Part shown: positions 2 through 12,380 of the stretch, piece by piece | How positions within the stretch are numbered: position 1 is the first letter of the stretch | Layout of the letters: the number at the start of each line of letters is the position of its first letter | Assembly (NCBI GenBank): GCA_014859205.1 | Contig: JACUUR010000006.1 | Location: forward strand, 1 to 32,839 | Reading direction: 5' to 3' | Origin: Dehalococcoidia bacterium | Lineage (GTDB): Bacteria > Chloroflexota > Dehalococcoidia > GIF9 > AB-539-J10 | Length of the DNA stretch: 32,839 bases | Program-made: the position numbers and the translations under genes | Notes under the pieces: model-generated | Database searches by the model: none | Seen by the model: only the letters and a program-made list of their open reading frames with translations | Told to the model about the DNA's origin: nothing

Positions 2-1183
2 ATGCCCGAACACCGCAGGCTGGCACTGGAGGCGGCACGCAAATCGCTGGTCCTGCTCAGGAACCAGGATGGTCTGCTGCCGCTGGAGAAGAACGTCGGG
101 ACCATCGCTGTAATAGGGCCAAATGCAGATAACGCCAGGAACATGCTGGGGGACTACACCTATGCTGCTCATATCGACCTGATCGCGATCACGGCGACCG
201 CGCTGGGCACGCCGTTACAGATACCAAGTAGTGACGAAGACCGGATTGGTGTTCGCGTAGTTACGGTGAACGAGGGCATCAGGGCGAAGTGCTCACCCGG
301 GACCAGGGTGCTTTATGCCCGGGGCTGTGACGTGGCCGGCACGTCAAGGACCGGCTTCGCCGAGGCCGTGAGAATCGCCGGCGAGGCCGATGTGGCTGTG
401 GTGGTGGTGGGCGGCAAGTCCGGTCTGACCCCGGACTGCACCTGCGGCGAGATGAGGGACAGCGCCGAGCTTCGCCTGCCGGGAGTGCAGGATGATCTGG
501 TGAAAGCCGTCTTTGAAACCGGCACCCCGGTCGTGCTTGTTCTAGTGAACGGGCGACCGTTGGCCCTCGGCTGGATGGCAAAGCAGATACCCGCCATCGT
601 GCAGGCCTGGTTGCCCGGCGAGGAGGGCGGCAATGCCATTGCTGACGCGCTGTTCGGTGACTACAACCCGGGCGGCAAGTTGCCCGTATCGATGCCTGAG
701 AGAGTGGGGCAGGTCCCCGTCTATTACGGTCACAAGCCATCAGGGGCCAGGTCACAGGTTTGGGGAGACTATGTTGAGGCGAGCACCGGTCCTGCCTTTG
801 AGTTCGGCTATGGGCTGAGCTACACGACCTTTGAGATGAGCAACCTCAGGATAGAGCCCGCCAGGATCAGGGCAGAAGACACCGTTTCGGTGCAGGTCGA
901 TGTGCGCAACACCGGCAGCAGGTACGGCGACGAGGTCGTCCAGCTTTACATAAATGACCCCTCTGCCAGCGTCACCCGGCCTGTCAAAGAGCTTAAGGGT
1001 TTTCGCAGAATCGCCCTGGAGCCAGGTGGGACCCAGACGGTGTTGTTCGATCTGCCGGCAGAGACGCTCGGCTTCTATGACCGGGAGATGAGATTCGCCG
1101 TTGAGCCCGGCACCTTCAAGGTCATGGTGGGCCGCTCCTCCCGGGACATCGTCCTTGAGGGCGTGTTTGAGGTCTTACCCTAG
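2..1183 (+). CDS. Glycoside hydrolase family 3 beta-glucosidase, C-terminal part (GH3_C plus Fn3-like domain), 5' truncated by window edge
   Basis: ORF open at the window start; GH3 C-terminal motifs (RKSLVLLRNQDGLLPL, IAVIGPNAD, GDYNPGGKLPVSMP, FEFGYGLSYTTFE) and Fn3-like tail (VRNTGSRYGDEVVQLYI). Confidence 0.9.
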   Translation: MPEHRRLALEAARKSLVLLRNQDGLLPLEKNVGTIAVIGPNADNARNMLGDYTYAAHIDLIAITATALGTPLQIPSSDEDRIGVRVVTVNEGIRAKCSPGTRVLYARGCDVAGTSRTGFAEAVRIAGEADVAVVVVGGKSGLTPDCTCGEMRDSAELRLPGVQDDLVKAVFETGTPVVLVLVNGRPLALGWMAKQIPAIVQAWLPGEEGGNAIADALFGDYNPGGKLPVSMPERVGQVPVYYGHKPSGARSQVWGDYVEASTGPAFEFGYGLSYTTFEMSNLRIEPARIRAEDTVSVQVDVRNTGSRYGDEVVQLYINDPSASVTRPVKELKGFRRIALEPGGTQTVLFDLPAETLGFYDREMRFAVEPGTFKVMVGRSSRDIVLEGVFEVLP

Positions 1184-2773
1184 CTTGCGCAGCTCCGCTC
1201 TCAGCACCTTGCCCAGAAGGTTCCTGGGCAGGGATTCCATGAACTGCACCTTCTTAGGCAGCTTGAAAGTGGGCATGCGCTCCTTGCAGAAGGCGATCAG
1301 TTCTTCCTCGCTTACACGTTCTCCCTGCTTGATGACCACGAAGGCCTTTATCTCCTCTCCGTATACGGGATCGGGGACACCCACCACGCCTGCTTCGGCT
1401 ATCGAGGGGTGCTGTAGAAGCGTCTCCTCGACCTCCGCGGGGGACACGTTTTCGCCGCCTCTGATGATGATGTCCTTCTTGCGCGCCGTGATGTAGAAAT
1501 AGCCGTCCTTGTCGACATATCCTATGTCGCCCGTATGGAGCCAGCCGTCTCTAATGGTACGGGCCGTCTCCTCAGGCAGGTTCCAGTAGCCTTTCATCAG
1601 CGTGGGCCCCCTGACCACTATCTCGCCTTGCTCGCCCGGCCGAAGCTCCCCGCCGTTCTCATCGACAACTCTCATGGCGTTGCACTTGAGCAGGCTCTTG
1701 CCGATGGAGCCATACTTGGGCGTCAGGTCGCCCGGCTGGCCAGTAGTAATAGCACCAGATTCGGTGAGGCCCCACCCCTCCCGAATGTCCACGCCCACCC
1801 TTTCCTTCCATCGCAGAGCTGTCTCCACCGGCAGAGGCGCCCCACCGCACTGACAGTCCTCAAGAGAGCTCAGGTCGTAGCTGTCCAGCCCGGGAAAGTC
1901 CAGCATCTGGATGTACATGGTGGGCACCGCGGCCATCTGAGTTACCCGGAATGCCTGAATGGCTTTCAGTGCCTCTTCGACGTTCCACCAGCGCAACAGG
2001 ATCGATCGTCCGCCCACCAGCATGCCGGTATTGCCGAAGGCAATGCCGAAGGAGTGCGAGAGAGGCAGCACCGCCAAACTGACCATGGCCCGGTTCACCC
2101 CGGAGACCCGCTGGTTGAGCTCCTCGATCCGGAGTGATCGGGCATCAAAGGAGCGGCTGTGCAACTGGAGGGTCAGCGAGCGGTGGACCAGTATGTACTC
2201 ATAGAAGAACAGAGCGTTGATGTGAAGCGAATAATGCGTATGCATCACGCCCTTGGGCGGACCTGTGGTGCCGGCGGTGTATATCAGGGCGGCTACATCG
2301 TCATTGTCGGTCTGCTCAATCGTTAGCTGAGGCGAACTTGTTGACATAATATCTCGATAGGAGAGGGTTCCAGGAACGTCACCGCCGTCTGTGAGTATGA
2401 CATGCTGCAGGCTCGGGGTCTGCCTCTGTGCCTCCAGGACGCGGCCTACGAAATCTGAGCTGGTCAGGATGGCCTTGGCTCCGGAGTCTTGATATATGTA
2501 CGCGGCCTGGTCGGGTCGCAACAGGGGGTTCACGGGCACCACAACCGCGCCTATCTTGTATATGGCAGGGAAGGCAGAAAGCACCTCAGGGCTGTTGGGC
2601 ATCTGTACACCGACCCGGTCTCCTCTCTGGACACCCAACCCTTTGAGCGCATTGCCCAGCCGGTTGGCGCTCTCGTTCATCTCGGTATTCTTGTACCATC
2701 TTCCTTCGAAATAGGTGCTGTCGTATTCGCCGAACCTCTTGATGCTATCCTCTATGCCCTGGCCGATGTTCAT
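1175..2773 (-). CDS. AMP-forming acyl-CoA synthetase/ligase
   Basis: ANL superfamily motifs: AALIYTAGTTGPPKGVMHTH, GWGLTESG, GWLHTGDIGYVDKDGYFYITARKKDIIIRGGENVSPAEVE, GKVLRAELR. Confidence 0.93.
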   Translation of the reverse strand: MNIGQGIEDSIKRFGEYDSTYFEGRWYKNTEMNESANRLGNALKGLGVQRGDRVGVQMPNSPEVLSAFPAIYKIGAVVVPVNPLLRPDQAAYIYQDSGAKAILTSSDFVGRVLEAQRQTPSLQHVILTDGGDVPGTLSYRDIMSTSSPQLTIEQTDNDDVAALIYTAGTTGPPKGVMHTHYSLHINALFFYEYILVHRSLTLQLHSRSFDARSLRIEELNQRVSGVNRAMVSLAVLPLSHSFGIAFGNTGMLVGGRSILLRWWNVEEALKAIQAFRVTQMAAVPTMYIQMLDFPGLDSYDLSSLEDCQCGGAPLPVETALRWKERVGVDIREGWGLTESGAITTGQPGDLTPKYGSIGKSLLKCNAMRVVDENGGELRPGEQGEIVVRGPTLMKGYWNLPEETARTIRDGWLHTGDIGYVDKDGYFYITARKKDIIIRGGENVSPAEVEETLLQHPSIAEAGVVGVPDPVYGEEIKAFVVIKQGERVSEEELIAFCKERMPTFKLPKKVQFMESLPRNLLGKVLRAELRKLG

Positions 2774-2991: not shown

Positions 2992-3020
2992 TTGACATGA
3001 GACAGTTTGTATGCCATAGT
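2992..3020 (+). promoter_or_regulatory. Candidate sigma70-type promoter for the acyl-CoA gene cluster (TTGACA-N17-CATAGT)
   Basis: TTGACA 2992-2997, 17-nt spacer, CATAGT 3015-3020, upstream of ATG 3059 in the divergent intergenic region. Confidence 0.55.
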
Positions 3021-3058
3021 CTCTCGGGTCCGCAAAGCTTGTGTCAGGAGGTTAACCA

Positions 3059-4501
3059 ATGGTCGGCATCACTTCTTACGGAGCTTACATCCCCCGATAT
3101 CGAATGAACCACAACACCCTGTTCACGGCTGTTGGCTTTCTGTTGACTTTTCCGCCGCCCGGTGAGAACGCCATCGCCAATCAAGATGAGGATACTCTCA
3201 CCATGGCGGTGGCCGCAGGAGTTGACTGCCTTGCGAGTAAGAAGCGGGAGATGGTCGATGGAATCTACCTTGCCTCCACAAGTCAGCCCTATGCGGTCAG
3301 GCAGAATTCCGTCCTGATAGCTACGGCCCTTGATCTGCCCTGCGGCATCAGGAGCGCCGACTTCACGGGCTCTACGAGGTCGGGAACGACGGCGCTGCTT
3401 GCTGCCTTTGATGCTGTGAAGGGAGAGATGTGCGGCAGTGTGCTCGTCTGTGCCTCTGATTGCCGCTTAAGCAAGCCGGGCAGCCCGCAGGAGTATCTGT
3501 ACGGCGATGGGGCTGCCTCCCTGCTTGTGGGCAACGAGGACGTGATCGCCACGTTCGAGGGCGCGTATTCTGTCTCCTATGATTTTCCCGATCGCTGGAA
3601 GGCCAGTTCAGAGAAGTTCGAGCACGCCTGGGAGGACCGCTTCATTCGCGATTCGGGCTATAGCCAGTTCGTCCTGGAGGCCATCTCCGGCCTGCTCAAG
3701 AGGTATAACCTCGACATCAAGGACTTCGCCAGGATAGCGTATCCCGGCCTATACGCACGGGAACACGGCGCCATTGCCAAGCGCCTCGGTGCCGACCCTG
3801 CCCAGCTTCAGGATACCCTGCTGAGCACGATTGGCGATACCGGTGCAGCCTCTCCTCTTATGATGCTGGTAGCGGCACTGGAAGGGGCCAAGCCCAACGA
3901 CATGATTCTGGTGGCCGGCTTCGGCAACGGCAGCGATGCCATGTTCTTGCGCGTGACCGATAGGATAAGCGATCTCAGTGAGAGGCGGGCGGTGAAGAAG
4001 CACCTGGCGGCCAAGAAAGACCTGGCCAGTTATGAGAAGTATCTCGCCTTCAGAAATCTGGCGCCGTTTGACCTGGGCATGCGCGGCGAGATCAGCATCC
4101 GGACTCCCATGTCGGCCCTGTTCAGGGAGCGAAAGGTGGTCCTGTCCCTCTGCGGCTCGAAGTGCCAGAGATGCGGCACACCTCAGTACCCGTATCAGAG
4201 GATATGTGTGAACCCGGACTGTGGAGCCGTTGACCAGATGGAGGACTACCGGTTCTCGGACAAGAAGGGAGTCATCTTCACCTACACGGGTGATTATCTG
4301 GCTGCCAGCATGGACCCGCCCTCATTGTACGGCCTGATCGATTTTGATGGGGGTGGCAGATTCTGGTTCGATTTCACAGATTGTGACATGGACTCCGTGA
4401 AGGTGGGCATGCCGGTGGAGATGACCTTCCGCAGACGGTATGTTGATGAGCCCACCGGAGTTCATGGTTATTCGTGGAAGGCGACCCCCATCGGTGAGTG
4501 A
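3059..4501 (+). CDS. HMG-CoA-synthase-like (thiolase fold) protein fused to a C-terminal DUF35 zinc-ribbon/OB-fold domain
   Basis: N-terminus MVGITSYGAYIPRYR and GDGAASLLVG resemble archaeal-type HMGCS; C-terminal zinc ribbon CQRCGTPQYPYQRICVNPDCG followed by an OB-fold-like region (GVIFTYTGDYLA...). Confidence 0.85.
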   Translation: MVGITSYGAYIPRYRMNHNTLFTAVGFLLTFPPPGENAIANQDEDTLTMAVAAGVDCLASKKREMVDGIYLASTSQPYAVRQNSVLIATALDLPCGIRSADFTGSTRSGTTALLAAFDAVKGEMCGSVLVCASDCRLSKPGSPQEYLYGDGAASLLVGNEDVIATFEGAYSVSYDFPDRWKASSEKFEHAWEDRFIRDSGYSQFVLEAISGLLKRYNLDIKDFARIAYPGLYAREHGAIAKRLGADPAQLQDTLLSTIGDTGAASPLMMLVAALEGAKPNDMILVAGFGNGSDAMFLRVTDRISDLSERRAVKKHLAAKKDLASYEKYLAFRNLAPFDLGMRGEISIRTPMSALFRERKVVLSLCGSKCQRCGTPQYPYQRICVNPDCGAVDQMEDYRFSDKKGVIFTYTGDYLAASMDPPSLYGLIDFDGGGRFWFDFTDCDMDSVKVGMPVEMTFRRRYVDEPTGVHGYSWKATPIGE

Positions 4502-4541: not shown

Positions 4542-5744
4542 ATGGCAGAAGGCATTAGAGACAAGGTCGCTATTATAGGCATGGGCTGCACCAAGTTCGG
4601 GGAACTGTGGGACAAGAGCGCCGACGACCTGATGGTGGACGCCTTTAAGGAGTGCATAGAGGATGCCGGCCTGGATAAGAAGGACCTCAATGCTGCCTGG
4701 TTCGGCGTGCATTTTGAGGAACAGAGCGTGGGAAAGGGGGCTACCTCACTGGCTCTGGCCCTGAAGTTGCCCTTTCTTCCGGTCACCAGGACCGAGAACT
4801 TCTGCGCCACTGCCACGGAGGCCTTCCGTGGTGCCTGCTACGGTGTAGCTTCAGGCGCTTATGACATAGCCCTGGCCCTGGGCGTGGAGAAGCTTAAGGA
4901 TACGGGATACGGCGGACTGCCTGGGGGGCCGGGACTTATGGGCACCAAGAGCGCGCTGATTATGCCTAAACTGACCGCCCCCGGGGCTTTTGCCATGATG
5001 GCCACCAGATATTTCTCAGTGTATGGCCTCAGTCCGGAGGACGGTAAGCGAATGCTGGCCAAGGTATCGGCCAAGAGCCATTACAACGGGGCCCGCAACC
5101 CCAAGGCACATCTGCGCCGTGAGGTGACGGAAGAACAGATACTGAAGGCCCCTGTCATCGCCTGGCCGCTGGGGCTGTTTGACTGCTGCGGAGTGAGTGA
5201 TGGCGCAGCGGCTGCCATCGTTACCAGGGCCGACCTGGCCAAGAAGTTCCGGCCCGATCCCATACATGTAAAGGCGCTCCAGGTGGCTGTGAGTTCCGGC
5301 GAGGAGTTGATGTATACCAAGTGGGATGGAGCGCATGTTGAGAGCGGTTACCGTGCCGGCATGCTGGCCTATGAAGAGGCGGGCATTAAGAACCCGCGTG
5401 AGGAGATCAGTATGGCTGAGGTGCACGATTGCTTCTCCATCACCGAGGCGGTGACCATGGAGGACCTACAGTTCAGCCCCAGGGGCAAGGTCAAGGACGA
5501 CATCGAGGCCGGCCGCTTCGACCTTGACGGCCCGCAGCCTATTCAGCCTGACGGTGGCCTCAAGTGCTTCGGGCATCCTATCGGCGCCTCTGGCCTTCGG
5601 ATGCTGTATGAGATGTACAAGCAATTGCAGGGCAAGGCTGATCTGCCGGAACGGCAGATCAAGAATCCCAGGCTGGGCCTGACCCATAACATGGGCGGGT
5701 TTCCGGCCATGAATATCGTTAGCGTGGCCATTGTTGGACTGTAG
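4542..5744 (+). CDS. SCP2-type thiolase / lipid-transfer-protein-like acetyl-CoA acyltransferase
   Basis: Thiolase motifs: nucleophile region ENFCATATEAFR, EVHDCFS, CFGHPIGASGLR, THNMGG. Confidence 0.9.
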   Translation: MAEGIRDKVAIIGMGCTKFGELWDKSADDLMVDAFKECIEDAGLDKKDLNAAWFGVHFEEQSVGKGATSLALALKLPFLPVTRTENFCATATEAFRGACYGVASGAYDIALALGVEKLKDTGYGGLPGGPGLMGTKSALIMPKLTAPGAFAMMATRYFSVYGLSPEDGKRMLAKVSAKSHYNGARNPKAHLRREVTEEQILKAPVIAWPLGLFDCCGVSDGAAAAIVTRADLAKKFRPDPIHVKALQVAVSSGEELMYTKWDGAHVESGYRAGMLAYEEAGIKNPREEISMAEVHDCFSITEAVTMEDLQFSPRGKVKDDIEAGRFDLDGPQPIQPDGGLKCFGHPIGASGLRMLYEMYKQLQGKADLPERQIKNPRLGLTHNMGGFPAMNIVSVAIVGL

Positions 5745-5770: not shown

Positions 5771-6244
5771 ATGACTGAGGGTAGCCTGATCACCGATGAG
5801 CTACGGGCATTGATAGGTGTTGCCTGGGAGCCCGCTGTTTTCAAGATCGAGGAGGGCGCCATCCAGAGGTACGCCCAGGCTATTGGCGACCCCAACCCCA
5901 TGTTCAATGACCCCGAATATGCACGCATGACCAGGCATGGTCGGCTGCTGGCCCCTCCCGGCTTCACCGGCTGGCCTGTCCGAGAAGCCCGTGCCAAGGA
6001 GAAGCTGTTTGATACTCTGATCAAGGCCGGAGGGCCGCCCAGGATTCTGGACGCCGGCGTTGAGTTCGAGTTCTTTGAAACTATCGGCGCCGGGGATATC
6101 TTAACCGCCACGCTCAGCGTTGCCAGCATCACCGAGCGCGACACCAGACTGGGCAGAACCATGTTTACGGCTGCCGAAACCACTTATCTGAACCAGAAGG
6201 GCGACCTGGTGCTCAGGAGCCGGTCCACCTTGATGCAGTTCTAG
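5771..6244 (+). CDS. MaoC-like / FAS1-like dehydratase N-domain hotdog protein (probably non-catalytic subunit)
   Basis: Hotdog motif AIGDPNPMFNDPEYAR with the usual catalytic His position occupied by Phe; APPGFTGWPV. Confidence 0.8.
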   Translation: MTEGSLITDELRALIGVAWEPAVFKIEEGAIQRYAQAIGDPNPMFNDPEYARMTRHGRLLAPPGFTGWPVREARAKEKLFDTLIKAGGPPRILDAGVEFEFFETIGAGDILTATLSVASITERDTRLGRTMFTAAETTYLNQKGDLVLRSRSTLMQF

Positions 6245-6266: not shown

Positions 6267-6737
6267 ATGGCTGAACAGATCTATTACGAGGATGTGCAAG
6301 CGGGGATGGAGATAACTCCCCTGGCCAAGATTGCCACCAGCCTCATGCTCGTCAAGTGGGCGGGGGCCTCGGGAGATTTCAATCCTCTTCATTATGAGGA
6401 CGACTTTGCTAAAGCAATGGGCGTGGGTGCTCCCATTGTGCACGGCGCGCTCAAACGCGCCTGGTTAGGGCAACTGATGACCGACTGGATTGGGGAAGAG
6501 GGAAGACTCAAGAAGCTATCCTGCCAGTACCGCGGCATGGACTATCCCAGGAAGATGAAGACAATGGAGGAGCCTCATGACGGCGAGACATGGTGGTGTA
6601 AGGGCAAGGTGACCGGAAAGCATGTCGACGGCGGTGATCACCTGGTTGAATGCGAGATCTGGGTGGAGAATGGAAAGGGAGAACGGACGACGCCCGGCTC
6701 GGCCCTGGTAGCACTGCCATCCAGGGGCGCGCTGTGA
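6267..6737 (+). CDS. MaoC-like (R)-enoyl-CoA hydratase, catalytic subunit
   Basis: Hydratase-2 motif ASGDFNPLHYEDDFAKAMGVGAPIVHGAL with Asp and His retained. Confidence 0.85.
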   Translation: MAEQIYYEDVQAGMEITPLAKIATSLMLVKWAGASGDFNPLHYEDDFAKAMGVGAPIVHGALKRAWLGQLMTDWIGEEGRLKKLSCQYRGMDYPRKMKTMEEPHDGETWWCKGKVTGKHVDGGDHLVECEIWVENGKGERTTPGSALVALPSRGAL

Positions 6738-6843: not shown

Positions 6844-7623
6844 ATGGGAAAACTAGACGGAAGAGTGGCGGTTATTACAGGGGCGGCGCGCGGCATAGGT
6901 AGGGCTGATGCCCTGTTGTTCGCCAGTGAGGGCGCCGCGGTCTTTGTCAGCGACATCGATGAGGCACCGCTGGCTGAGGTGGTCAAGGAGATAAAGGCTG
7001 CCGGAGGCAAGGCCGACGGCCTGGCCGGAGATGTCAGAAAACTGGAGGACTGTCAGAAGATCATGGACCAGGCGGCCGAGAAATTCGGCCAGATAAACAT
7101 CCTGGTCAACAATGCTGGCCTGACCAGAGATGCCCTGATCAACAGGATGAGCGAGGCGCAATGGGACACATGTGTGGATATTAGCCTCAAGGGGACCTTT
7201 AACTGCATCAAGGCAGCCTCGAAGTACCTGATGAAACAGGATAACAATGGCCGGATCATCAACGTGGCCTCGGTTGCCGGACTGATGGGCAATGTCGGAC
7301 AGATCAATTACTCCGCCGCCAAGTCGGGCCTCATCGGCTTGACCAAGACAGTAGCCAAGGAATGGGGAAGGTACGGCCTCACCTGCAATGTCATTGCCTA
7401 CGGCTTTGTAGATACGCGGTTGACCGCGGAGAAGGAAGCGCAGGAGGAGCGGGTGGACGGGGAATTGGTGGGCATACCCAAGAAGATAAGGGATCTAATG
7501 CTTCTGCAGGTTAAGCCGATGACCCCCGAGGATGCAGCCAAGCCAGTTCTGTTCCTGGCTTCGGATGACGCTGCCTTCATCACCGGGCAGGTGCTGAACG
7601 TCTCCGCCGGCATCTATATGTAG
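6844..7623 (+). CDS. Short-chain dehydrogenase/reductase (FabG-like 3-hydroxyacyl-CoA / 3-oxoacyl reductase)
   Basis: TGAARGIGRA cofactor motif, NNAG, Ser of NVASVAG and YSAAK catalytic motif; SD aaaggaggtaacg before ATG. Confidence 0.93.
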   Translation: MGKLDGRVAVITGAARGIGRADALLFASEGAAVFVSDIDEAPLAEVVKEIKAAGGKADGLAGDVRKLEDCQKIMDQAAEKFGQINILVNNAGLTRDALINRMSEAQWDTCVDISLKGTFNCIKAASKYLMKQDNNGRIINVASVAGLMGNVGQINYSAAKSGLIGLTKTVAKEWGRYGLTCNVIAYGFVDTRLTAEKEAQEERVDGELVGIPKKIRDLMLLQVKPMTPEDAAKPVLFLASDDAAFITGQVLNVSAGIYM

Positions 7624-7794: not shown

Positions 7795-8997
7795 ATGGAC
7801 TTCGGACTGAGCGAAAAAGAGCTGGCCCTGAAGGAGGAGATCCGCAGGTTTGCGCAGGCCGAGTTGCCTGCGGACTGGAGGCGCACCACACTCATCGACT
7901 GGGAATGCCCGGACTTCGAGTTCGAGATGTCCATATCCCGAAAACTGGCGCAGAAGGGCTGGCTGGTCATGAGCTGGCCCGAGGAGTACGGCGGTCGGGG
8001 CGCTTCTGTCATGGAGCAGACCATATATGAGATGGAGCTGGCCTACTGGGGCATCCCGGGGGCCTGGATGGGCATCAGCGGAACACAATGGGTGGGTCCC
8101 TGCCTCATGCTCTTCGGCACTGAACAGCAGCGCCGGCAACATCTGCCCCTGATCGCCTCGGGTGATAAAGATGGCGTCTGGTGCACGTGCTACAGCGAGC
8201 CAAATGCCGGCTCGGACTTCGCCAATCTGCAGACGCGGGCGGTGAGGGATGGCGATGACTATGTCATCAACGGGCAGAAGGTGTGGACGAGCGCCGCTCA
8301 CAGGTCCAGATGGTGCTGGCTGGCTGCCAGGACCGATCCCAACGCGGCCAAGAAGCACCGCGGCATCAGCATATTCATTGTAGACATGACGAGCCCGGGC
8401 GTGACCGTCAACCCTATCCTGAACTACTACGGTCGACACCACTTCAACGAGGTGTTCTTCGATAATGTCAGGGTGCCGGCCTCCGATCTGGTGGGTGAAG
8501 AGAACAAGGGCTGGTATCACCTCATGCAGGCGCTTGTCTTTGAGCGCCGCAGCATGGCGCCCACAACCTACGGTGGATTCAAGAGACTGCTGGAAGAACT
8601 CGTAGAGTATGCCACCCACACCGAGCATCAAGGCCAGCCTTTGTCTCAGAATCCTGCGGTTCGTGCCAGGCTGGCTGATCTGGCGGTGGAGTTGGAAGTG
8701 CTCAAGATGTTCGCCTTTCAACTCGCCTGGTGCATAAGCCAGGGCCAGATCCCTGCCTATGAGTCTTCCCGGAACAAGATAGCCAGCGACGAGGCAATGA
8801 AGCGCATGGCCCTCATAGGGGCGGAGCTACTGGGCATATACTCCCAGGTTGACCCCGATTCCGAATGGGCCAAACTGAGAGGCGCCATACAGGGTGCCTA
8901 TCTCGGATTCCCCGGTCACGCTATCGCGGCCGGCACCGCTGAGATCGAGAAGAGCATCATGGCGCAGTTCAAACTAGGGCTGCCCAAATCGTATTGA
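7795..8997 (+). CDS. Acyl-CoA dehydrogenase, putative catalytic subunit of a heteromeric ACAD
   Basis: ACAD motifs WPEEYGGRGAS, CYSEPNAGSDFANLQTRA, NGQKVWTS; Glu in LVFERRSMAP; C-terminal AAGTAEIEKSIMA. Confidence 0.92.
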   Translation: MDFGLSEKELALKEEIRRFAQAELPADWRRTTLIDWECPDFEFEMSISRKLAQKGWLVMSWPEEYGGRGASVMEQTIYEMELAYWGIPGAWMGISGTQWVGPCLMLFGTEQQRRQHLPLIASGDKDGVWCTCYSEPNAGSDFANLQTRAVRDGDDYVINGQKVWTSAAHRSRWCWLAARTDPNAAKKHRGISIFIVDMTSPGVTVNPILNYYGRHHFNEVFFDNVRVPASDLVGEENKGWYHLMQALVFERRSMAPTTYGGFKRLLEELVEYATHTEHQGQPLSQNPAVRARLADLAVELEVLKMFAFQLAWCISQGQIPAYESSRNKIASDEAMKRMALIGAELLGIYSQVDPDSEWAKLRGAIQGAYLGFPGHAIAAGTAEIEKSIMAQFKLGLPKSY

Positions 8998-9106: not shown

Positions 9107-10240
9107 ATGGACTTTAGCTTTACCGAGGAGCAGGACATGTTACGAACCCTGGCCAGGGGTTTTCTGGCCGAGCAATGTCCCAAGGCCAGGGTCAGGGACA
9201 TGGACAGGGATGAGAAAGGCTTTGACCCCCACCTATGGCGCAGCATGGCCGAACTGGGCTGGCTGGGGCTCGTCCTTCCCGAGGAGTACGGCGGTATGGG
9301 CGGGAGCTTCATAGACCTGGCCGTTCTGATGGAGGAGATGGGTAGGAACATCGTGCCGGGCCCTTTCTTCTCTACCATGGCCTTTGGTGCGCTGCCTCTG
9401 CTTGAGTACGGTAGTAGTGAGCAGCGCAGCAGGTTTCTGCCGCCGGTAGCTCGCGGCGAGGCGATCTGGACCTTGGCCTTAGCCGAGTCGTCGGGAAGCT
9501 GCAAAGCCTCTGAGGTACGGCTTCGCGCTGTGGCTGAGGGAAGCTCACACGCTCTTTACGGGGACAAGCTTTTCGTTGCCGGTGCCCACATAGCCGATTA
9601 TATGCTTGTAGCCGCCAGGACCGGAGAGGGTGCCGGGCCCGAGGATGGCGTCACGCTGTTCGTCGTTGAGGCCGGGCAGCCGGGTATGAAGATCGAGGCG
9701 ATCCCCACCATGGGCGGCGACAGGCAGTACAGGGTCAGCTTCGAGGGAGCAGCAGTGTCGGCGGGTTGTATCCTGGGCGAGCTGGGTCAGGGTTGGGTTG
9801 TGGTGGAGTTCGCCCTGCAGCGGGCTGCCGTGCTCAAAGCTGCCGAGATGTCCGGGGCCTGCCAGGCTGTCCTGGACATGTCCAGTGCCTATGCCCGGGA
9901 GCGGGTGCAGTTCGACCGGCCCATCGGCTCATTCCAGGCCATACAGCACAAGCTGGCCGACATGCTGATCGACGTGGAGGCGGTGCAGTACCTGGTCTAT
10001 CAGGCAGCCTGGGGAATAAGCTCCGGTTCGCCATCCCCCTGGCAGATCTCGGCGGCCAAGGCCAAGGCCAATGAGGCTTACCAGCGGGTCTGCATCGATG
10101 GCATCAGCACTCATGGCGCCATCGGATATACCATGGATCATGATATCGGCCTCTACTATCGTCGTGTCAAGGCGGCCGAGTTCACGGCCGGCGACACCGA
10201 CTTTCACCGGGAAGTGATAGCCACTGAACTGGGCCTTTAG
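9107..10240 (+). CDS. Acyl-CoA dehydrogenase-like protein, putative non-catalytic partner subunit
   Basis: ACAD N-terminal motif LPEEYGGMGGS and FAD-contact motif RVQFDRPIGSFQAIQHKLADM retained; common catalytic Glu positions not conserved. Confidence 0.9.
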   Translation: MDFSFTEEQDMLRTLARGFLAEQCPKARVRDMDRDEKGFDPHLWRSMAELGWLGLVLPEEYGGMGGSFIDLAVLMEEMGRNIVPGPFFSTMAFGALPLLEYGSSEQRSRFLPPVARGEAIWTLALAESSGSCKASEVRLRAVAEGSSHALYGDKLFVAGAHIADYMLVAARTGEGAGPEDGVTLFVVEAGQPGMKIEAIPTMGGDRQYRVSFEGAAVSAGCILGELGQGWVVVEFALQRAAVLKAAEMSGACQAVLDMSSAYARERVQFDRPIGSFQAIQHKLADMLIDVEAVQYLVYQAAWGISSGSPSPWQISAAKAKANEAYQRVCIDGISTHGAIGYTMDHDIGLYYRRVKAAEFTAGDTDFHREVIATELGL

Positions 10241-10273: not shown

Positions 10274-10915
10274 TTATCCGGGAGTCGTGGCTTGCTGCGG
10301 CGGAGGCCGCTTCCGGTGCAGGACCACCCTGGCTGCAATCAGGGCCGCCAGGCCCGAGAACAACAGGGCCCTTCTGCCGTCCGGCATCGGGCGCCAAAAC
10401 GCGCGCCAGCCAGAATCCACCATCTGATTGACACTGACCTCAGGAATTCGGAACTCCCTGTCACCGGTGTCAGGATCCCGTTGGTAGAACTGTACATGGG
10501 GGTTCTCAAACGAGGTCTCCACTTTGCCGTCATACTCCACCCACATATGCATGGGAGATGAACTGATCCGGTAGGGAATGCTCTTGGCTTCGAAGACGGA
10601 AGCTAATACCAGGGCTCGAGCTTTGCAGTCGCCCTGTTGTCGTTCTAGTATCTCCTCGATGCTGGGAAAATACCACGGCATGTTATATAGCTCCCAATCA
10701 TGGCGATAAGGTATTCTGGCTAAGACCGCTCTCTCCAGAGCTGCCGGATCAGACGGCAGGTCATCCAACATGAACTCAACGGCTGCTGGTATAGCATCAA
10801 AGGTATACACTCTGTGGATGCTGACGATTAGCTTGATGGGATTCGGATACAGTACAAATAGAATCCACAGCGCAAGCAGCAGAGGGAAGTATCTCCGGAA
10901 AGCTCTTCTAAGCAT
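10274..10915 (-). CDS. Membrane-anchored transglutaminase-like (cysteine protease fold) protein
   Basis: N-terminal hydrophobic helix (YFPLLLALWILFVLYP), QGDCKARALVLASVFEAKSIPYRI...HMWVEYDG resembling transglutaminase-core Cys/His/Asp pattern, C-terminal TM-like segment; start overlaps the upstream lyase stop. Confidence 0.65.
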   Translation of the reverse strand: MLRRAFRRYFPLLLALWILFVLYPNPIKLIVSIHRVYTFDAIPAAVEFMLDDLPSDPAALERAVLARIPYRHDWELYNMPWYFPSIEEILERQQGDCKARALVLASVFEAKSIPYRISSSPMHMWVEYDGKVETSFENPHVQFYQRDPDTGDREFRIPEVSVNQMVDSGWRAFWRPMPDGRRALLFSGLAALIAARVVLHRKRPPPQQATTPG

Positions 10916-12287
10916 AATCGAACCTACACGTGAAATGCCGCAGGATGGGAGTTTGGTACACCATCTTCAGGCCCCTCAGGTTTACGCGATTGTGGTAGAT
11001 CTCCAGAATGCTGTCCGCCACGAAGTCCATGTGCGCGTTGGTATAAGCCCGGCGGGGAATAGCCAGCCGCACCAGTTCGAGATCTGGGTATTTCTCGTGT
11101 CCGGTAGCGGTATCTTCCTCCCCGAACATGCTTGGGCCCAGGTCTACCCCCCTGATGCCCGCTTCCACGTAGAGCGCTACCACCAGGGCCTGTCCCCTGA
11201 ATTCACGCTGCGGAATGTGCGGGGCAAATCTTCTGGCGTCAAGATACACCGCGTGTCCGCCGGGCGGCAGAACAATGGGCACCCCTCCTTCCTGGAGGCG
11301 TCCGGCCAGATGGGCCACCTGTTCGATGCGGAAGCGCAGATAGGGGAGTTCGAGTACCTCCTGGAGTCCCACCGAGAGTGCCTCCATATCCCTGCCCGCC
11401 ATGCCTCCATAGGTGGGAAAGCCTTCGTATATGACCGCCAGCCCGCAGGCCTGTCGGTAGAGGGTCTCGTCACTGAAGGCCATGAAGCCTCCAATGTTGA
11501 CCAGGCCGTCCTTCTTGGAACTCATGACACAGCCGTCTCCATAGGAGAACATCTCTTGAGCGATCCTCAGTATCTCCCTATCCTGATAGCCGGACTCCCT
11601 GGTCCTGATGAAATAGCAGTTCTCGGCGAAGCGCGCAGCATCGAAGAAGAGAGGCACTCTGTAGCGACGGCAGATCTCTGCTGCCGAGCGGACATTCTCC
11701 ATTGAAGCGGGCTGACCGCCATTGTTGTTACAGGTGACGGTTATCAGAACAAACGGCACCTTCCGACTGCCATGCTCCTGAAGAACTCCCTCCAGTCTGC
11801 CCAGGTCGATATTGGCCTTGAAGGGATGGCAATCCTCCGGGTCCAACCCCGGCGCTATGACCAGGTCCAGTGGAGTCGCCCCCTTGAGCTTTATGTGCGC
11901 CCGGGTGGTATCAAAATGCATGTTGCCGGGGATAACCGATCCCGGCTGGATCAGCATCGCGGCAAGTATGTTCTCAGCCCCCCTGCCCTGGTGGGTGGGC
12001 AGGACGTATGGATAGCCTGTGATATTGGTTACGGTCTCCTGGAAGCGAAAGAAGCTGCGCGACCCGGCATATGATTCGTCACCAAGCAGCAGGGCCGCCC
12101 ACTGGAACTGGCTCATAGTGGAAGTGCCGCTGTCGGTCAGCAGGTCAATGTAGACGTCTTCCGCCCTGAGGTTGAAGACGTTGTAGCCCGCTTCAGCGAT
12201 CAGCCTTTCCCTATCTTCCCTGCTTGTCTGCCGCAACGGCTCGACCATCTTGAATTTGTACGGTTCCGGGCCAATGCTATCGCTCAT
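10908..12287 (-). CDS. tnaA: Tryptophanase / tyrosine phenol-lyase family beta-eliminating lyase (PLP), tryptophanase-like at specificity positions
   Basis: PTHQGRGAEN, SSKKDGLVNIGGF (PLP Lys), YEGFPTYGGMAGRDMEA, GGHAVYLDARRF; ORF is open to 12353, but ATG at 12287 follows AAGGAG (about 11 nt spacing) and matches the family N-terminus. Confidence 0.85.
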   Translation of the reverse strand: MSDSIGPEPYKFKMVEPLRQTSREDRERLIAEAGYNVFNLRAEDVYIDLLTDSGTSTMSQFQWAALLLGDESYAGSRSFFRFQETVTNITGYPYVLPTHQGRGAENILAAMLIQPGSVIPGNMHFDTTRAHIKLKGATPLDLVIAPGLDPEDCHPFKANIDLGRLEGVLQEHGSRKVPFVLITVTCNNNGGQPASMENVRSAAEICRRYRVPLFFDAARFAENCYFIRTRESGYQDREILRIAQEMFSYGDGCVMSSKKDGLVNIGGFMAFSDETLYRQACGLAVIYEGFPTYGGMAGRDMEALSVGLQEVLELPYLRFRIEQVAHLAGRLQEGGVPIVLPPGGHAVYLDARRFAPHIPQREFRGQALVVALYVEAGIRGVDLGPSMFGEEDTATGHEKYPDLELVRLAIPRRAYTNAHMDFVADSILEIYHNRVNLRGLKMVYQTPILRHFTCRFDYA

Positions 12288-12324
12288 AATACTATGGTTC
12301 TCCTTGGCAGGTATTCGGACAGAG

Positions 12325-12351
12325 GAGGCCGGCCGAACGGAGGCCGGCCTC
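12325..12351. repeat. Perfect 10-bp stem inverted repeat (GAGGCCGGCC-7 nt-GGCCGGCCTC) between ridA-like gene and lyase
   Basis: 12325-12334 GAGGCCGGCC and 12342-12351 GGCCGGCCTC are exact reverse complements; no T-tract on either side. Confidence 0.8.
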
Positions 12352-12380
12352 AAGCTTTGTCTGCGTGAATCGCATGCATC

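Follow-up and report, generated by a model that had tools for sequence, protein, structure and literature searches.

A fused HMG-CoA synthase-like/DUF35 protein as a probable non-catalytic partner of a beta-oxidation thiolase in Dehalococcoidia

The Friedel-Crafts acylase PhlABC (PDB 5m3k, 5mg5, 9skh), an enzyme of antibiotic synthesis encoded by three separate genes, combines a dead HMG-CoA synthase (HMGCS)-like subunit, a DUF35 subunit and an active thiolase-fold subunit. In PhlA the Cys and Glu of HMGCS are missing, and the substrate is acted on by residues of PhlC only, but all three proteins are required and one cavity is lined by PhlA, PhlB and PhlC (PMC6392133). The acyl transfer is CoA-independent, and the complex was reported to be without CoA-binding residues (PMC6392133). 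PhlA had earlier been called an inactive member of the thiolase superfamily, in a study that also noted DUF35 fused to thiolase-superfamily domains (PMC2954200). The acyltransferase MucABC of Streptococcus macacae (PDB 9vbo, 9vbt), also encoded by separate genes and very divergent, performs the 3-acetylation of tetramates with an HMGCS/KASIII-like subunit without HMGCS catalytic residues and a thiolase-like subunit. The same three folds make up the archaeal acetoacetyl-CoA thiolase/HMGCS/DUF35 complex of the mevalonate pathway (PDB 6esq, 6et9), in which, however, HMGCS is catalytically intact and unfused. In degradation pathways, DUF35 docks a thiolase-fold enzyme in the benzoylsuccinyl-CoA thiolase BbsAB and in the aldolases Ltp2-ChsH2 and Sal-Shy, but these have no HMGCS-like subunit, and their DUF35 is either free (BbsA) or fused to MaoC (ChsH2, Shy).

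We analysed a window of 32,839 nucleotides (the whole stretch of DNA under study, from a Dehalococcoidia bacterium) in which a preliminary description, made from the sequence by eye, had noted an HMGCS-like protein fused to DUF35 and followed by a thiolase gene. We consider it probable, at about three chances in four, that this fused protein is a non-catalytic HMGCS-like/DUF35 partner of the adjoining thiolase, which assembles the complex and completes its substrate/CoA cavity. A dead HMGCS-like subunit is known in principle from PhlA; what is new is the fusion, its wide spread and its beta-oxidation setting.

Architecture of the fused protein

The open reading frame covers exactly positions 3059-4501 (+) and codes for a single chain of 480 amino acids made of an archaeal-type HMGCS domain and a DUF35 zinc-ribbon/OB domain (Table 1). 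Residues 1-333 match the archaeal HMGCS models NF003274 (1e-65) and TIGR00748 (8e-44), but miss their curated cut-offs (222 bits vs 244 and 150 vs 353, respectively). Pfam finds an ACP_syn_III_C domain and, at residues 401-458, the DUF35 OB domain PF01796, whose score of 42.1 bits exceeds the cut-off of 27.1. The zinc ligands C369, C372, C383 and C388 are all present, so that assignment to DUF35 holds in full, as the preliminary description had it. The best solved relatives by sequence are PhlA (9skh, 5m3k; 2e-33 to 9e-38), archaeal HMGCS (6esq_I, 3e-33) and MucA (9vbo); the C-terminus is closest to the DUF35 chain of 6esq. An AF2 model built on 24 sequences (pTM 0.88, mean pLDDT 84) has 9skh_C, 6esq_J and 5mg5_A as its nearest folds, the same structures that come top by sequence.

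Table 1. Positions of the fused gene's parts and of neighbouring features in the window
Feature	Residues	Coordinates	Strand	Evidence or remark
AMP-forming acyl-CoA ligase, divergent		1175..2773	-	profile matches; same place in related loci
Promoter-like TTGACA-17-CATAGT (10/12, TG ahead of -10) and AGGAGG ribosome site		2992..3051	+	5' of fused gene
HMGCS-like domain, predicted catalytically dead	1-335	3059..4063	+	NF003274, 6esq_I and PhlA matches, AF2 model
Thr74 at catalytic Glu site (Glu82 of 6esq HMGCS)		3278..3280	+	multiple alignments
Thr106 at nucleophilic Cys site (Cys114 of 6esq HMGCS)		3374..3376	+	multiple alignments
Pro229 at catalytic His site		3743..3745	+	multiple alignments
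Linker, low model confidence at about 345-353	336-355	4064..4123	+	AF2 model
DUF35 zinc ribbon and OB fold	356-480	4124..4498	+	PF01796 8e-11; 6esq_E 1e-14
Partner thiolase (SCP2-type/archaeal-type)		4542..5744	+	NF004810; catalytic Cys88, His295, Cys297, His345 intact
MaoC-like protein 1 (HadA-like, FAS1_DH_region)		5771..6244	+	hydratase His replaced (NPMFN)
MaoC-like protein 2 (HadB-like)		6267..6737	+	hydratase motif GDFNPLH present
FabG-like SDR, probable 3-hydroxyacyl-CoA dehydrogenase		6844..7623	+	
Acyl-CoA dehydrogenase, nearest PimC (large subunit)		7795..8997	+	
Acyl-CoA dehydrogenase 2		9107..10240	+	best model AcrC-like; also PimD-like

An HMGCS is recognised by its catalytic Glu, Cys and His, and at these sites the window protein has T, T and P. 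Alignment to 6esq_I and multiple alignments bear out the earlier placing of Thr at the Cys and Glu sites; for the His site, where Tyr or Pro had been suggested, the aligned residue is the Pro, with the Tyr just before it. The AGGAGG lies a short way 5' of the ATG, and shuffles contain promoter-like matches at least as often as the region around the fused gene does. In public databases the adjoining thiolases are labelled 'acetyl-CoA acetyltransferase', and the fused proteins go under 'KAS III C-terminal domain-containing protein' or 'OB-fold domain-containing protein', which masks that the pair probably forms one unit; recognising the pair would also prevent mis-annotation as HMGCS.

The fused family and its ancestry

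Scanning species genomes yielded 36 loci, further loci came from a sample of 301 Chloroflexota genomes, and plasmid matches were found in Sphingomonadaceae, Variovorax, Azoarcus, Tistrella, Rhodococcus, Mycobacterium avium and haloarchaea. The 66 fused homologues belong to several bacterial phyla and to archaea, and since all of them show the same dead state, chance or assembly error is ruled out. The catalytic Cys and Glu are present in 0/66 and the His in 1/66. Thr occupies the Glu site in 58/66, and the nucleophile site varies freely (L 23, T 19, A 6, Q 5, also V, S, I, P, N, R and G). The set of four zinc Cys is complete in 64/66. The remaining two, on plasmids of Sphingopyxis macrogoltabida (L106, 7001-8383) and Sphingomonas paeninsulae (L059, 9001-10440), have lost zinc-ribbon Cys and yet retain an adjoining thiolase, and zinc may therefore be dispensable.

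Far from being a one-off, the dead HMGCS-DUF35 fusion defines a widespread family that almost always has a thiolase gene linked to it. Purifying selection acts on both of its domains and on the thiolase, with dN/dS of about 0.06-0.15 for the HMGCS-like domain, about 0.02-0.14 for DUF35 and about 0.03 for the thiolase. That the fused gene is a decaying, functionless HMGCS, as the lost catalytic residues might suggest, is hardly credible: the selection data, with dN/dS far below 1, already contradict it, as do the open frames and the retention of the gene across several bacterial phyla and archaea.

Working HMGCS has 103 columns with a conservation of 95% or more; in 30 of these, 80% or more of the fused family shares the residue, and the columns lost include active-site segments. 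As judged from these alignments, the fold is retained and the active site is not. Strongly conserved residues absent from HMGCS have appeared instead, namely Gly262 (65/66), Arg136 (57/66), Asp150 (60/66), Trp191 (57/66), Glu192 (62/66) and Thr74 (58/66). Together with the strong selection on the domain, they might be taken to mean that it has acquired a new catalysis (for example another condensation, a hydrolase or an acyl transfer reaction) through other residues in a remodelled pocket. We think this improbable, because no Cys or His reaches 75% conservation in the HMGCS-like domains of the 66 homologues, so that no replacement nucleophile is visible, because the nucleophile site is freely variable, and because protein interfaces equally predict new conserved residues.

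We built a maximum likelihood tree of 78 HMGCS-like domains, with 19 rows of working HMGCS (one archaeal and 18 from Chloroflexota) and the root placed on the archaeal row. All working HMGCS are set apart from all dead domains (100/99), and on the dead side the fused family (100/98) is the sister of the PhlA/MucA clade (99/94), outside which it falls; MucA is very divergent (branch 2.4) and groups with PhlA, whose branch is the characterised one nearest to the fused family. The suggestion that the window protein is simply a covalent version of the archaeal HMGCS-DUF35 pair is contradicted by this topology. Given the sister placement, the simplest course is that a single catalytic loss preceded the split between PhlA and the fused family, with fusion coming later. 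Tyr10, Arg194 and Tyr201 are found in working HMGCS and in the fused family but are missing in PhlA and MucA; because PhlABC is CoA-independent and reportedly without CoA-binding residues, they are candidates for a retained CoA-contacting surface.

A locus that looked like a fused intact HMGCS (L084) was rejected on account of a TGA between its two genes, and therefore fusion accompanies only dead HMGCS in this sample. The ibuprofen degradation proteins IpfD/IpfE were considered as a characterised fused pair and set aside, since the literature found presents IpfE simply as an OB-fold protein that has IgrD-type matches, with no sign of an HMGCS domain. A literature search for the fused HMGCS-DUF35 architecture in degradation clusters found none.

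Several loci depart from the usual arrangement. The window's own genome carries a second fused dead HMGCS-DUF35 gene (G000:C117:27752-29173, L002/L074; 44% identical), followed by an enoyl-CoA hydratase just where the contig ends; its counterpart in the related genome G242 (L071) has a thiolase 918 bp downstream. In lake Chloroflexi (L018 and L019), the fused gene plus thiolase occurs as two tandem copies, accompanied by genes for MaoC, SDR and acyl-CoA dehydrogenase. A non-fused PhlA-like protein of Chloroflexota (L101, 6537-7490, G072) has Gly, Asp and Pro at the catalytic sites, and no thiolase was detected within the stretch fetched around it.

The partner thiolase and its operon

The apparently active thiolase noted directly downstream keeps its nucleophilic Cys, its HDC motif (His295-Asp-Cys297) and its GHP His, and scores 620 bits with NF004810 against a cut-off of 403. 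Its closest solved relative is the thiolase of the archaeal complex, by sequence (6esq_A, 5e-57) and by fold (6et9_C/6esq_A), and its solved relatives include the 6esq thiolase, BbsB, PhlC and Ltp2; in contrast to PhlC, it has the full HDC/GHP set and sits in a beta-oxidation operon. The closest solved relatives of both partners, which for the fused protein are PhlA, HMGCS and MucA, belong to solved multi-part complexes.

A same-strand thiolase adjoins 59 fused genes, downstream in 57 and upstream in two (haloarchaea), with a median gap of 45 bp that is within 60 bp in 49/57 of the downstream cases. All four catalytic residues are intact in 59/59 scored partners. Fused genes without a paired thiolase are mostly at a contig edge or next to a truncated one; the true exception is L077 (4760-6142, G137), which has no thiolase nearby and neighbours that look unrelated by eye, and because of it the pairing is not strictly universal. 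The distance matrices of fused protein and thiolase are correlated (Mantel r 0.82, 0/5000 permutations, 40 rows below 70% identity), a value that includes shared ancestry; both gene linkage and correlated trees can also come from shared operon inheritance.

After the divergent ligase, the fused gene, the thiolase, two MaoC genes, the SDR and two acyl-CoA dehydrogenases follow on one strand with short gaps, and the same order repeats in related Dehalococcoidia. The hydratase His is missing in the first MaoC-like protein and present in the second, as in HadA/HadB. Going by predicted functions, the operon is a full beta-oxidation set. The HadA/HadB-like and FabG-like partners, together with the acetyl-CoA condensation that 6esq, as the nearest complex, carries out for the mevalonate pathway, would also suit an operon running synthetically, as reversed beta-oxidation or ACP-free fatty acid synthesis, in which the thiolase pair would condense acyl-CoAs. 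This direction seems unlikely, considering the two acyl-CoA dehydrogenases related to PimC/PimD, the conserved divergent AMP-forming ligase, and the ETF, CoA transferases, enoyl-CoA hydratases, uptake systems and aromatic-ring dioxygenases annotated at other loci of the pair. The dioxygenases occur in Rhodococcus and M. avium, and UbiD decarboxylases with a benzoate-CoA ligase in Haladaptatus; taken across loci, the neighbour genes therefore favour catabolism. The host has Dxr of the MEP pathway and, by profile search of its genome, no HMGCS above the TIGR00748 cut-off, and therefore no mevalonate role is needed.

Alternatively, the partner would be a retro-aldolase of the Ltp2/Sal type, the pair removing a side chain by aldol cleavage instead of thiolysis. 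Ltp2 and Sal are related enzymes that use DUF35 partners, and their operons also encode MaoC proteins and paired acyl-CoA dehydrogenases. Nevertheless, the nucleophilic Cys and the HDC(F) motif are present in 59/59 partners, as opposed to YDCY in Sal, and the operon SDR would produce a 3-oxoacyl-CoA, so that we regard aldol cleavage as very unlikely.

Plasmids of M. avium and Rhodococcus (L104, L063, L111) carry the pair next to genes for ring-hydroxylating dioxygenase subunits, three enoyl-CoA hydratases and an AMP-forming ligase, apparently an uncharacterised aromatic-acid degradation cluster. Beyond the window operon, a gene on the opposite strand (10908-12353, -) codes, by eye, for a tryptophanase/tyrosine phenol-lyase-like protein, with a small transglutaminase-like membrane protein gene (10274-10915, -) downstream of it.

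A proposed non-catalytic partner and its mirror case

By analogy, the 480-residue protein would be PhlA and PhlB in one chain beside PhlC. DUF35 would dock the thiolase and the HMGCS-like fold would pack on it, giving a complex similar to those solved as 6esq and 5m3k. The dead domain may keep the oligomer together and help to line the cavity, probably including a CoA-binding surface, before the thiolase active site. The chemistry would be left to the thiolase alone, as thiolytic cleavage of a 3-oxoacyl-CoA in the final step of a dedicated beta-oxidation operon whose substrate is probably bulky or branched. The proposal of a dead scaffold beside the thiolase survives in part: the lost catalytic residues, the intact DUF35 and the adjoining intact thiolase make a non-catalytic partner the best reading, and this idea already has a solved precedent in PhlABC. 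Passing the CoA substrate to the thiolase by channelling is unlikely because the dead domain produces no intermediate for transfer; more plausibly, it completes a cavity or a CoA site that the two partners share. The pair would represent a natural two-gene thiolase, perhaps easier to express than PhlABC, and would offer a test of why an enzyme retains an inactive relative as partner.

A broader proposition, to which we give even odds, is that un-named, widespread beta-oxidation thiolases depend on the fused dead HMGCS/DUF35 protein for part of their CoA/substrate site, and that the HMGCS-thiolase-DUF35 complex tolerates catalytic loss in either partner. The mirror case, a live HMGCS with a dead thiolase, lets one ask whether an old thiolase-HMGCS complex persists for its shape and not for both reactions. 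Of 18 Chloroflexota loci where HMGCS is intact, six have a linked thiolase that retains its Cys and 12 have one with Gly, Asp or Gln instead, and the same gene set therefore also occurs with a dead thiolase. The 12 Cys-less loci (L085-L087, L090-L094, L097, L098, L100 and L102), all with HMGCS intact, fall together on one side of a branch with an SH-aLRT of 89.
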